64,000 nt of DNA from positions 1-64,000 of the forward strand of contig BNZC01000006.1 of the NCBI GenBank assembly GCA_026000755.1, written 5' to 3'. Below the pieces are notes generated by a model. That model had not been told where the DNA came from. It saw only the letters and a list, made by a program, of their open reading frames with translations, and ran no database searches. A program made the position numbers and the translations under genes. Shown in pieces: positions 21,572 through 32,108 of this stretch. The stretch comes from Clostridia bacterium (GTDB lineage: Bacteria > Bacillota > Clostridia > Lachnospirales > Lachnospiraceae). The stretch's first letter is position 1, and every line of letters begins with the position of its first letter.

Positions 21572-22606
21572 ATGACAGCAAATGAAAATGTAAGAGCAGC
21601 ATTTCTGGGCAAACGCCCGGAACGTATACCTGCCGGGGTTTGCTTAGGAGGCAGTTGGCCTTATTTTTTAGAGGGCGTAACACTCCTTGAACTACTGGAG
21701 GATCCCATACGTGCCGCTGAAATCTTTTATCGTGTAAATGAAGAGGTAGATGCGGATTTTGTCACGGTGGGTACAGGAGCAACTGCATTTTTAATAGAGG
21801 GCTTGGGAGGGGATATTGCATTTTCCTCGGATGGCGCACCTGCCATAGCCTCCCTGTTGGTGCAGTCCGAAGAAGATATTGCAAGTCTTGACATACAGGC
21901 GGCACTTGCCGTACCAAAGGTACAATGGTTAAAAGAGGTGGCAAAAGAAACCTTGCGTCTAAATCAAAACAAACGCAGTATTTTCATCAGCGGGCGTGCA
22001 CCCTTTACCTTGGCGGGACAACTCTTGGGATTGGAAACCCTTTCCAAATCACTTTATAAAAATAAGACATTGGTGGAAAAACTCTTGGACTTTACCACAG
22101 AGCTGTCGGTCGCCTATTATGAATTTATGCTAGAAGTTCCCGGCATGGACGGTATCTTTATTGCGGATCCCTCCGCCTCGGGAGATGTGGTATCCAAAAG
22201 GCATTTTGAAACATGGGTTGTTCCCTATCTGACAAAGGTGGTAAGCCGTTTGGCAAGGCATGACAAATTATCCCTTGTACATATCTGCGGTAACATTACA
22301 GACCGTTTGCATTTACTGCCTCAAACAGGCATTCAGATGGTGTCCGTAGACAGTAAGGTGGATCTTCTGACGGCGAAAGAAATCCTAAAGGGGCAAATTG
22401 CCTTGGCAGGCAATGTCAACCCCGTGGCAAGTATAGAAGAAAAATCTCCGGAGGAAGTCTACGCCGATGCTACAAAATGTTTGGATGCAGGAGCAAAAGA
22501 CGGCGGATTTCTCTTATTGCCGGGCTGTGATTTATCCGCAAAGGCAAGAGTGGAAAATGTAAGGGCGATCACCAAAGCGGCACATGATTGGCAAGTAGGG
22601 GTGTAA
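21572..22606 (+). CDS. MtaA/UroD-family corrinoid methyltransferase 1
   Basis: The 344-residue TIM-barrel protein of the uroporphyrinogen decarboxylase superfamily starts after a G-rich ribosome site. It carries the zinc-site pattern of methylcobamide methyltransferases (MtaA, MtbA, CmuA): VHICGN at about residue 230 and a later Cys in LLPGCDLS near residue 315. UroD itself lacks this HxC motif, so a methyl-transfer role is likelier than heme synthesis. It would move a methyl group between a corrinoid protein and a thiol or other acceptor. A paralogue lies at 26223. Confidence 0.88.
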   Translation: MTANENVRAAFLGKRPERIPAGVCLGGSWPYFLEGVTLLELLEDPIRAAEIFYRVNEEVDADFVTVGTGATAFLIEGLGGDIAFSSDGAPAIASLLVQSEEDIASLDIQAALAVPKVQWLKEVAKETLRLNQNKRSIFISGRAPFTLAGQLLGLETLSKSLYKNKTLVEKLLDFTTELSVAYYEFMLEVPGMDGIFIADPSASGDVVSKRHFETWVVPYLTKVVSRLARHDKLSLVHICGNITDRLHLLPQTGIQMVSVDSKVDLLTAKEILKGQIALAGNVNPVASIEEKSPEEVYADATKCLDAGAKDGGFLLLPGCDLSAKARVENVRAITKAAHDWQVGV

Positions 22607-22608
22607 AA

Positions 22609-22658
22609 GAGCCCTGTTCTTTAGGGCGATGCTTACCGAACGTTCTTTGGTCGGTAAG
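22609..22658. repeat. Two-hairpin repeat element, copy A
   Basis: The element contains GCCCT-loop-AGGGC and CTTACCGA-loop-TCGGTAAG. The reverse complement matches 41401-41450 at about 46 of 50 positions. It lies in the 79-base gap between the methyltransferase and nitrogenase-like genes. Confidence 0.8.
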
Positions 22659-22685
22659 ATTCCATAGGGTAAAAAAGGGGGAACT

Positions 22686-30805: not shown

Positions 30806-30814
30806 GAATTTACC

Positions 30815-31171
30815 ATGGCAAGAGTAGCAGTATCCACCACTGACGGAAAAACAATTCATCAGCATTTCGGACACACAAGGGAATTTCATATTGTGGATAT
30901 TGAAAATGGCGACTATCAATTCATAGAATCAAGGCAGGTTACGCCGGCGTGTAATCAATTCGGGCACAATGAAAGTGCCTTTGACAATATCCTTGCCATA
31001 TTGTCTGACTGCGAAGCTGTCATTGTAGGGAAAATAGGGGAAGGTGCCTCTACCTACCTGATTGAAAAAGGTATGCGGGTGTTTGAGGTGCGTGGCATTG
31101 CAGAGGAAATATTAGAAGAATTTGCACAAAATCAGGCACATTATTTTCCGGAAAGGGAGGTCTTGGCATGA
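30815..31171 (+). CDS. NifX/NafY-family cofactor-binding protein
   Basis: ATG 30815 follows GAGGAGAATTTACC. The 118-residue domain opens RVAVSTTDGKTIHQHFGHTR and includes VGKIGEGASTYLIEKGMRV, the pattern of the dinitrogenase iron-molybdenum cofactor (NifX/NafY/NifB C-terminal) family. Such proteins hold or escort iron-sulfur-carbide precursors. In many anaerobes this domain is fused behind NifB; here it is a separate gene immediately upstream of the NifB gene. Placement supports a role in building the metallocluster of the nitrogenase-like enzyme. Confidence 0.88.
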   Translation: MARVAVSTTDGKTIHQHFGHTREFHIVDIENGDYQFIESRQVTPACNQFGHNESAFDNILAILSDCEAVIVGKIGEGASTYLIEKGMRVFEVRGIAEEILEEFAQNQAHYFPEREVLA

Positions 31172-31236
31172 GCCGTTTTATACGAGAAACCAAAGTAAGT
31201 CCTCTCTTTTTTTCGGAAAGGGAGGTTTTGATATGA
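31168..31236 (+). CDS. 22-codon leader ORF from a duplicated nifB start, period 65
   Basis: ATG 31168 overlaps the NifX-like stop (ATGA) and its own stop overlaps the NifB start (ATGA at 31233). Its sequence (GGAAAGGGAGGT, start, MSRFIRETK) repeats that of the NifB start (GGAAAGGGAGGT, start, MSHSIREIK) 65 bases later. It is therefore a duplicated gene start that probably works only as a translational relay. Confidence 0.5.
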   Translation: MSRFIRETKVSPLFFSEREVLI

Positions 31237-32108
31237 GTCATTCGATACGAGAAATCAAGGCAAGTCATCCCTGTTTTTCTCTGGGAAAACCAAACAACAA
31301 GGGGCGTATCCACCTTCCCGTTAGTCCGGGGTGTAACATTGCCTGTAAGTTTTGTGAACGATCCATCAATTCCTTAGAACAACGCCCCGGCGTAACGGCA
31401 CAAATCATTACACCCAAAGAGGCTTTAGAAGTGGTGCGAAAAGCAGTCTTTCTGTCGCCTGACATAACAGTAGTTGGCATAGCGGGTCCCGGCGATACAC
31501 TGGCGACGCCCTATGCCTTAGAAACCTTTCGCTTGGTGAAGCGTGAATTTCCAAAACTCATCAAGTGTATGAGTACCAATGGATTGCTCCTACCCGAACG
31601 AGCCGAGGAACTGATAGAAATCGGCATTGATACGCTGACGGTAACGGTAAATGATATTTATGCGGATACCTTGGTCAAACTAAATGACAGAATCACGTAT
31701 CATTCTAAAGTGATAAAAGGCAAAGAAGCGGCAAACATCCTGATAGCGAATCAATTAGAAGGCATAAGGCGTGTTACAAAGGCAGGCATGATTGTAAAGG
31801 TCAATACGGTGTTAGTGCCGAAAATTAACGGCGATCATATCGGTGAAATTGCGAAAGCGGTGAAGGAGGCGGGAGCGAGTCTATACAATATCATTCCACT
31901 GATTCCTCAACATGAACTGGCGGATCACGCTCCGCCGGAATGTGGAGAAATTGACAGCGCACGTAGTGAAGCAGAGAAGTACATACAAGTGTTTCGTCAT
32001 TGCCAACATTGCCGAGCCGATGCCATTGGCGTACCGGGTGGCGAGGATTTGGGGGAGCAGATTTATAAAAAGAGAGTGGCGAGTGAAAACACGTTTTCTC
32101 ATGGGTGA
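31233..32108 (+). CDS. nifB: NifB-like radical SAM cofactor maturase
   Basis: ATG 31233 follows GGAAAGGGAGGTTTTGAT; the longer frame start lies in the duplicated leader. The 291-residue product has the NifB core: SHPCFS, then RIHLPVSPGCNIACKFCERS with the radical SAM CxxxCxxC, RPGVTA, GIAGPGDTLA, KCMSTNGLLL and the C-terminal pair in RHCQHCRADAIG. The Cys/His residues that bind SAM and the K-clusters therefore appear present. NifB makes the carbide-centred 8Fe core (NifB-co). No NifE or NifN scaffold is encoded in this window. This implies that the nitrogenase-like pair may use a NifB-co/L-cluster type centre. Confidence 0.92.
   Translation: MSHSIREIKASHPCFSLGKPNNKGRIHLPVSPGCNIACKFCERSINSLEQRPGVTAQIITPKEALEVVRKAVFLSPDITVVGIAGPGDTLATPYALETFRLVKREFPKLIKCMSTNGLLLPERAEELIEIGIDTLTVTVNDIYADTLVKLNDRITYHSKVIKGKEAANILIANQLEGIRRVTKAGMIVKVNTVLVPKINGDHIGEIAKAVKEAGASLYNIIPLIPQHELADHAPPECGEIDSARSEAEKYIQVFRHCQHCRADAIGVPGGEDLGEQIYKKRVASENTFSHG

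Follow-up and report, generated by a model that had tools for sequence, protein, structure and literature searches.

A nitrogenase-like D/K pair outside the methylthio-alkane reductase clade in a corrinoid methyl-transfer operon of a Clostridia bacterium

Corrinoid type 1 mlp gene clusters were defined by Kountz and Balskus in 2023 (PMC10418091) and include a non-selenium group. In or near these non-selenium clusters lie MarHDK-like group IV-A genes, together with CysK and methionine transporters; MarHDK-like genes that fall outside the cluster were described as "invariably" present elsewhere in the genome, and methionine salvage or sulfur valorisation was proposed as the role of such clusters (PMC10418091). 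Because that paper published it as a hypothesis, the coupling of a nitrogenase-like enzyme to corrinoid chemistry is not new. Here we analyze a 64,000-nucleotide stretch of DNA, hereafter the window (positions 1 to 64,000 of contig BNZC01000006.1, assembly GCA_026000755.1), from a Clostridia bacterium of the Lachnospiraceae, in which a co-directional array at 15587-32108 encodes a nitrogenase-like H/D/K set, two Mlp methyltransferases, two corrinoid proteins with their activase, and a cysteine synthase. Methylthio-alkane reductase (MAR) is the nearest enzyme to the D/K pair whose structure and chemistry are known; the pair lies in a separate clade and is not itself a MAR. The association with corrinoid genes is real and exceeds chance, and the concept behind it is already published; what is new is the D/K branch apart from MAR, its altered pocket, and an operon form with a glutamine-synthetase (GS)-like ligase and an amidotransferase. 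Neither this operon version nor a residue comparison of the D family with MAR was found in the titles and abstract openings of open-licence literature.

A sequence-only reading had placed the methyltransferases, corrinoid proteins, activator, D/K, H, NifX-like and NifB genes between 21572 and 32108, and Pfam and motif searches bear it out: all are open frames on the + strand, and the array in fact starts well upstream of 21572. MlpA (21572-22606), a UroD/SCMT-type methyltransferase (PF01208, 175 bits) with zinc ligands H237, C239 and C319, aligns with MtaA (PDB 4ay7) at HIC and the later Cys; MlpB (26223-27257), of SCMT type with zinc ligands H243, C245 and C319, scores 375.9 bits against PRK06252 (NF004889; cut-off 244) and 159 bits against MtaA 4ay7. 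Both carry the HxC motif and a further Cys at residue 319, and such a His-Cys-Cys site is of the thiol/selenol type (PMC10418091). The nitrogenase-like D (22686-24200) and K (24200-25546) genes, whose products match PF00148 (Oxidored_nitro) with 264.8 and 239.9 bits, are followed consecutively by corrinoid protein 1 (25556-26221) and MlpB, no gap being longer than 10 bases. Next come a RACo-type corrinoid reductive activase with a 2Fe-2S domain (27390-28985; RACo_C_ter 239 bits, Raco_middle, Fer2), which probably starts at the ATG at 27390 rather than at 27360, and corrinoid protein 2 (29083-29766); both corrinoid proteins have B12-binding and B12-binding_2 domains, and DTHDIG of the GDTHDIGKN motif claimed for them was found in each. 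The NifH-like reductase (29791-30666; TIGR01287 402.1 bits, cut-off 394.35; Fer4_NifH 336 bits) has both cluster-Cys motifs, GVGCAGRG and DVLGDVVCGGF. A NifX-like cluster carrier (30815-31171; PF02579, Nitro_FeMo-Co, 86.5 bits) precedes a NifB-type radical SAM protein without a NifX domain (31233-32108, its start probably at 31233 and not at 31122), which keeps the six NifB motifs HPC, CxxxCxxC, ExRPG, AGPG, TxTxN and CxxCRxDAxG. The window thus encodes together at least two Mlps, a corrinoid protein and a Ram/RACE activase, as in type 1 mlp gene clusters, and, as in the MAR-type gene set, H, D and K along with a protein of NifB type.

Among named proteins, the nearest to the window D comes from Lachnospiraceae bacterium ZAX-1 (86% identity), which suggests a Lachnospiraceae-like Bacillota as the host. 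In the PDB the best match of D is MarD (193 bits; next 118) and that of K is MarK (271 bits; next 100), and the best Foldseek match of a D model is 9fmg_A; since the model is of low confidence (mean predicted local distance difference test 69.5, with stretches 74-101 and 174-188 below 50), the overall fold match alone was used. In a FastTree phylogeny of 129 tips, the window D falls within a 91-tip clade (support 99) separate from the 22-tip clade that holds MarD (support 99), and in a quick IQ-TREE of 68 tips the family comprises 36 tips with a Shimodaira-Hasegawa-like approximate likelihood ratio support of 93; both trees were built without IsrD and Endomicrobium proavitum NfaDK. Topologies that join the family, or four operon-clade sequences, to four MAR sequences were rejected by the approximately unbiased (AU) test (p 1.2e-5 and 2e-71, respectively).

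The same trees bear on the possibility that D/K is a group IV nitrogenase that fixes N2, as E. proavitum is reported to do with a group IV enzyme, NfaDK (PMC11257099, PMC9147875). In Heliophilum, NflDK1 was predicted to be a nitrogenase, NflDK5 was called MarDK and the roles of NflDK2-4 were given as unknown (PMC9147875). The pair on Heliophilum contig 1 (L195), by position NflDK5, groups beside MarD; the pair adjoining a nifH-like gene (L203), by position NflDK1 and hence the published clade mate of NfaDK, groups with a second pair of the window genome (G000:C5, L005) outside the window D clade and is co-located with the window family at L203. Two other Heliophilum pairs, by position among NflDK2-4, lie inside the window family. 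The window D/K keeps all cluster ligands, as a nitrogenase would, but D reaches only 145.5 bits against the NifD equivalog (cut-off 653.55), and the neighbors of D listed below are mostly importers and sulfur genes, so that N2 fixation is very unlikely. Of the best 120 matches to the D protein of Candidatus Adiutrix, most of them unnamed, none bears the name Endomicrobium. An eight-tip corrinoid-free clade (L059, L071, L075, L077, L079, L080, L082 and L083), considered as an N2-fixing branch, is unsupported as such because importer genes, by eye NMT1-type, lie past K in four of the five listed (L059, L077, L079 and L083, not L080).

The second nitrogenase-like D/K/H set of the window genome lies at 7399-14674 of L005 (G000:C5:24000-43999) and adjoins ABC (ATP-binding cassette) importer genes; its D carries Arg428-His429, Val194, Trp195 and Phe199 (MarD numbering, as throughout, checked against PMC12552129) and is not grouped with MAR proper. 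A pair of another family in the same genome, together with the finding that the best NCBIfam match of the window D is NifE (189.6 bits), could mean that the window D/K serves the second pair as a NifEN-like cofactor scaffold. This score is far under the NifE cut-off of 505.1, K has three P-cluster cysteines and D both Fe8S9C ligands, and a second-type D is nearby in only 9 of 79 D loci; we regard a scaffold role as extremely improbable.

Alignment with MarD and MarK places the P-cluster-type cysteines where they had been predicted: C51, C76 and C144 of D correspond to MarD C66, C91 and C158, and C14, C39 and C104 of K to MarK C32, C56 and C121, and the equivalents of the Fe8S9C ligands Cys270 and His429 are also kept. 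Among 84 aligned family D sequences, window included, all keep Cys66, Cys91, Cys158, Cys270, His375 and His429, while the equivalents of MarK Cys32, Cys56 and Cys121 are kept in 74, 75 and 76 of 77 K sequences, the remainder being gaps or X; His375 is lost in some distant family members (L155, L171 and L158). The pocket around these ligands is altered. In all 84 sequences Arg428 is missing and Tyr replaces Phe199, His194 is kept in none of them (Ile, Val or Phe instead), and position 195 is Trp in 53, Met in 29, Ser in one and Gln in one; in the window D, Ile180, Met181 and Tyr185 occupy the His194, Trp195 and Phe199 positions, and Gly-His stands in an Arg428-His429 loop shortened by one residue. 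Uniformity at 194, 195, 199 and 270 is partly built in because the 79 named D loci were retrieved by two short patterns that cover those positions (Ile194-[Met/Trp]195-Tyr199 and Cys270, either of which sufficed; best 80 of 134), and seven family sequences from a whole-protein search (L155-L158, L165, L171 and L203_D) also have Tyr199, Cys270 and His429 and lack Arg428. Ten second-type D sequences all have Arg428-His429, Trp195 and Phe199. Because the Heliophilum NflDK1-type and C5 sequences have Arg428-His429 too, we dropped it as a mark of MAR alone.

A corrinoid-system gene (Mlp, corrinoid protein or RACo) stands beside D at 55 of the 79 named loci and at 32 of the 45 that extend over at least 18 kb. 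MlpB is present at 38 of the 79, a corrinoid protein at 40, RACo at 35 and all three at 31; CysK accompanies D at 40, the GS-like ligase at 12, a MetQ-type protein at 14 and a second-type D at 9, and contigs from several phyla, such as L008, L024, L026, L034 and L055, repeat the gene order D-K-Cor-MlpB-RACo. Control loci of 12.7-20 kb each contained no corrinoid-system gene, be they NifD loci (0/3), sister-clade loci from genomes without the family (0/5) or loci of another branch (0/3), and neither did distant family loci at 37-41% identity (L183-L187; 0/5). CysK-like genes (248-300 bits) are found at three of the five sister-clade and two of the three other-branch controls, and CysK at four of the five distant family loci. 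From these locus and control counts, CysK is the wider partner of D and the corrinoid system the narrower. Some second-type pairs occur at Mlp-containing loci, where they sit next to a family D (L018, L019, L029, L043 and L049). When 150 of 214 unlabelled + strand neighbors (L017-L084) were scanned, 40 of them matched an ABC permease family and 39 an NMT1-type binding protein family, and the 25 families listed of 77 are mostly importers and sulfur genes, P-II not being among those 25. SrpI-type encapsulin shell proteins and Cys/Met pyridoxal phosphate enzymes are each represented twice among the same 150 neighbors. At some loci D/K pairs from more than one branch occur together (L019 and L053 have three D genes each, L072 has two), and in Candidatus Adiutrix a gene that by eye encodes a glycyl-radical-enzyme activase (L079:3446-4339) lies just 5′ of nifB-nifX-H-D-K.

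The association extends to whole genomes. Fifty D genomes, corresponding to 50 of the 79 loci, were searched for MlpB with at least 50% identity, and 44 of them have it, two as fragments. Across 398 genomes of the phylum, MlpB reaches at least 50% identity in 14 and only 37-44% in 14 others, and D at least 47% in 10 and 37-41% in four; close MlpB is present in nine of the 10 D genomes (Fisher p 3e-14, or 8e-13 without the window genome, for 398 genomes with kinship uncorrected), the exception being a genome 84% complete, and in none of the four with distant D. The sequence-only reading of a distinct system that couples nitrogenase-type reduction to corrinoid methyl chemistry is supported in part, the coupling itself being already published (PMC10418091): as far as tested, the pair falls outside the MAR clade and corrinoid genes adjoin many close homologs. 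Could this be a cluster for methyl-selenium salvage, as most type 1 mlp gene clusters are? The core genes are the same, and Mlp2 of C. ljungdahlii prefers selenide (PMC10418091). However, selD (E 1e-60) is found in 14 of 14 distant-MlpB genomes, none of which has D, versus eight of 14 with window-type MlpB (259 of 398 overall), and was not found in the window genome (68% complete; 1.55 Mb in 129 contigs), making selenium salvage highly improbable here. The distribution of selD and D agrees with the division of these clusters into a selenium and a non-selenium group (PMC10418091).

We propose that the array is a sulfur-scavenging operon in which H/D/K would cleave a C-S bond, corrinoid methyltransferases would take the methyl group and CysK would fix the sulfide, a reading from gene content and homology to which we give nearly even chances. 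A Met-type importer would bring in a thioether; NifB and NifX would provide the Fe8S9C cluster to D/K, and H would hand on electrons, with ATP, for the splitting of R-S-CH3 into RH and methanethiol. MlpB could then shift the methanethiol methyl to Co(I) of a corrinoid protein, leaving sulfide, while RACo would hold the corrinoid protein reduced; MlpA would give the methyl to an acceptor thiol, for which homocysteine is a candidate, and CysK would turn sulfide into cysteine. In the branch of the window, the GS-like ligase and amidotransferase might, speculatively, attach and remove a gamma-glutamyl group on an amine-bearing substrate. The sequence-only reading had named a C-S, C-N or C-O methyl bond as the possible target; C-S is favored because cysteine synthase and Met-type and NMT1-type importers adjoin and the zinc sites are His-Cys-Cys, and a C-S reductase is suggested by D/K being closest to MarD/MarK among solved structures, by the retained ligands and by the six-motif NifB. 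That H/D/K and the corrinoid proteins act in one pathway, like the direction of methyl transfer, the substrate and the acceptor, is what we infer. C. ljungdahlii Mlp2 methylates selenide, and sulfide more slowly, from methylcobalamin (PMC10418091), a reaction that runs opposite to the one we suggest for MlpB.

Several observations weigh against this scheme. The strongest, which concerns the order of steps, is that CysK accompanies D also where no corrinoid gene was found, which suggests that in those branches the product of D/K is sulfide and not methanethiol. CysK is also not a mark of the family alone, given the CysK-like genes at control loci. MAR chemistry is not simply transferable, since His194, Phe199 and Arg428, and in the window also Trp195, differ. 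The linkage itself is incomplete: 24 of the 79 D loci lack a corrinoid-system gene, 13 of them among the 45 of at least 18 kb; six of the 50 D genomes, including Ruminiclostridium cellobioparum and Oryzomonas japonica, lack MlpB at 50% identity or more; and five of 14 MlpB genomes (G577, G253, G542, G113 and G535) have no D match at E 1e-40. Finally, the GS-like/amidotransferase pair stays outside the core scheme and is unexplained by it.

Demethylation could instead come first, the Mlps turning R-S-CH3 into a thiol that H/D/K desulfurizes to RH and sulfide for CysK to fix. CysK beside D at four of five distant corrinoid-free family loci, as if D/K frees sulfide, and an active site unlike that of MAR would both suit this order. 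No nitrogenase-like enzyme is known to desulfurize a free thiol, which counts against it, and we consider it unlikely; Mlp2, which has been assayed, acts on selenide and sulfide, that is, at the last demethylation (PMC10418091). In a looser arrangement, H/D/K and the corrinoid system would each draw sulfur from compounds of their own, with nothing in common but regulation and CysK; a parallel pathway was offered as an alternative in the same paper, and each system is indeed found without the other. The gaps of at most 10 bases across D-K-Cor1-MlpB and the recurrence of D-K-Cor-MlpB-RACo in several phyla argue against such an arrangement and leave it quite unlikely. The C-S cleavage scheme with methyl transfer downstream is the one we carry forward.

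Upstream of MlpA and in the same direction, all on the + strand, the array holds a class-II glutamine amidotransferase-like protein (15587-16438) with Cys after the second Met (MKMCGIF), barely above the GATase_6/GATase_7 cut-offs and far under the NCBIfam GlmS/PurF cut-offs; a MetNIQ-type importer composed of a MetN-like ABC ATPase (16687-17430; PF00005), a MetI-like permease (17515-18177; PF00528) and an NlpA/MetQ-type substrate-binding lipoprotein (18343-19194; PF03180, 199 bits); cysteine synthase CysK (19294-20241; TIGR01139 471.5 bits, equivalog cut-off 350.95); and the GS-like ligase (20252-21559; PF00120, 292 bits), separated from the first methyltransferase gene by 12 bp. The ligase scores below the GlnA, GSIII and gamma-glutamylputrescine cut-offs, and its PDB matches are led by 11zs (232 bits) and 5dm3 (229), with glutamate-methylamine ligase 9qur at 128. 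In the gamma-glutamyl pairs PuuA-PuuD and EgtA-EgtC, a glutamate ligase works with a glutamine-amidotransferase-type hydrolase; the window pair resembles them, which we offer as an idea only.

The array may have its own regulator. A regulator-like protein (13724-15235, +; start codon uncertain) has a weak N-terminal helix-turn-helix (HTH; HTH_3, Pfam 21.9 bits, cut-off 23) and relatives at loci L006, L008, L013, L014 and L016. A sequence scan finds a promoter-like site at 15371-15399 (+) that matches the sigma-70 consensus at 12 of 12 positions with a 17-base spacer, preceded by a likely operator, the direct repeat TTGGC-N6-TTGGC (15333-15348, +), which recurs in the leaders of the same gene on two planctomycete contigs, L006 and L008. 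The pattern was derived from these three leaders and is present in them by construction; no further match lies in the window (0.07 expected at up to one mismatch), and the remaining 202 of the 204 loci fetched have none either. Two TTGGC direct repeats stand in tandem at 15292-15348, 5′ of the operon promoter, with spacings of 12 and then 11 bases. These repeats may be where the HTH protein encoded at 13724 binds. A second promoter-like site (11/12) precedes nifH at 29763, and a hairpin of 11 pairs with a T tail lies between nifX and nifB (31201-31225); in the window, promoter-like sites exceed those in shuffles (60 versus 38.1) and terminator-like sites are not enriched (21 versus 19.9). An Rfam scan of the window gave no family at the gathering score, and a riboswitch or other known RNA control was dropped, 13400-33000 yielding just two snoRNA matches far under the cut-offs.

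Eleven contigs whose D is 67-82% identical form one clade with the window D (support 100); they are binned as Planctomycetota (five, Planctomycetaceae), Synergistota (four, Synergistaceae) and Deltaproteobacteria (two), whereas the nearest D among 60 sampled host relatives shares only 41% identity. These bins probably come from termite guts; the record titles give no such statement. The operon is common to the clade contigs as far as they extend, with some parts missing: L006 and L008 alone have the full set of ten tracked partner genes, no label was given to H or NifB in L007, L013 and L014, and none to RACo in L015 and L016. Cross-phylum transfer of the operon is the simplest reading; mis-binning of single contigs is possible, and the five separate planctomycete bins form one branch with support 98. 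A broader proposal, which we advance tentatively and think doubtful as a whole, is that of a third branch of P-cluster/Fe8S9C reductases, neither nitrogenase nor MAR, that would work in series with corrinoid methyl transfer to convert methylated organosulfur, here perhaps gamma-glutamylated, to cysteine without oxygen and would pass between phyla as a single operon that carries a regulator and an operator of its own.

Elsewhere in the window, two frames at 35343-36538, by eye an IS3-type transposase pair, lie 3′ of the operon and of ABC-transporter-like genes; restriction-type genes for a ResIII/DEAD helicase and a GmrSD-type protein occupy 1346-7699 (-); and a 2013-residue protein at 57950-63988 (-), with AMP-binding, condensation, carrier and NAD-binding reductase domains, resembles a nonribosomal peptide synthetase with reductive release.

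Bacteria of several phyla thus carry a cluster that combines a nitrogenase relative, B12-type methyl-transfer proteins and cysteine synthase. If D/K feeds the corrinoid system and cysteine synthase, the cluster would turn methylated organic sulfur into cysteine without oxygen, and surveys that label such genes nitrogenase, as several D protein matches are named, would be mistaken about N2 fixation. A family that keeps the ligands and alters the pocket also offers a test of which residues determine chemistry.

Compared with type 1 mlp gene clusters, the window shares SCMT-type His-Cys-Cys methyltransferases, a corrinoid protein, a Ram/RACE activase, nitrogenase-like genes, cysteine synthase and a methionine transporter, but differs in being a single long array and in adding NifB, NifX, a second corrinoid protein, the GS-like ligase and the amidotransferase. 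Its Cor-MlpB-RACo order is that of the C. ljungdahlii locus tags in PMC10418091, a comparison of order and not of the sequences themselves, and the five of 14 window-type MlpB genomes without a D match at E 1e-40 stand against the "invariably" of that paper, with the proviso that our set is cut by identity and not by the published clade. With MAR (MarBHDK; PDB 9fmg and 9d9u; PMC12552129) the window family shares H/D/K and a NifB-type protein, the P-cluster cysteines, Cys270/His429 and the best sequence and fold match; it differs in belonging to another clade, in lacking His194 and Arg428, the proposed hallmark, and in having Tyr for Phe199. NfaDK/NflDK1 (PMC9147875) are likewise of group IV, with the same cluster ligands and co-location in Heliophilum at L203, yet the Heliophilum NflDK1-type sequence has Arg-His and lies on the opposite side of the tree from the window D. 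The isethionate reductase IsrBHDK (PMC11423573) also belongs to the group IV nitrogenase-like enzymes and serves to assimilate organic sulfur; by its description there, the radical SAM protein IsrB is little like NifB, whereas the NifB of the window has all six motifs.

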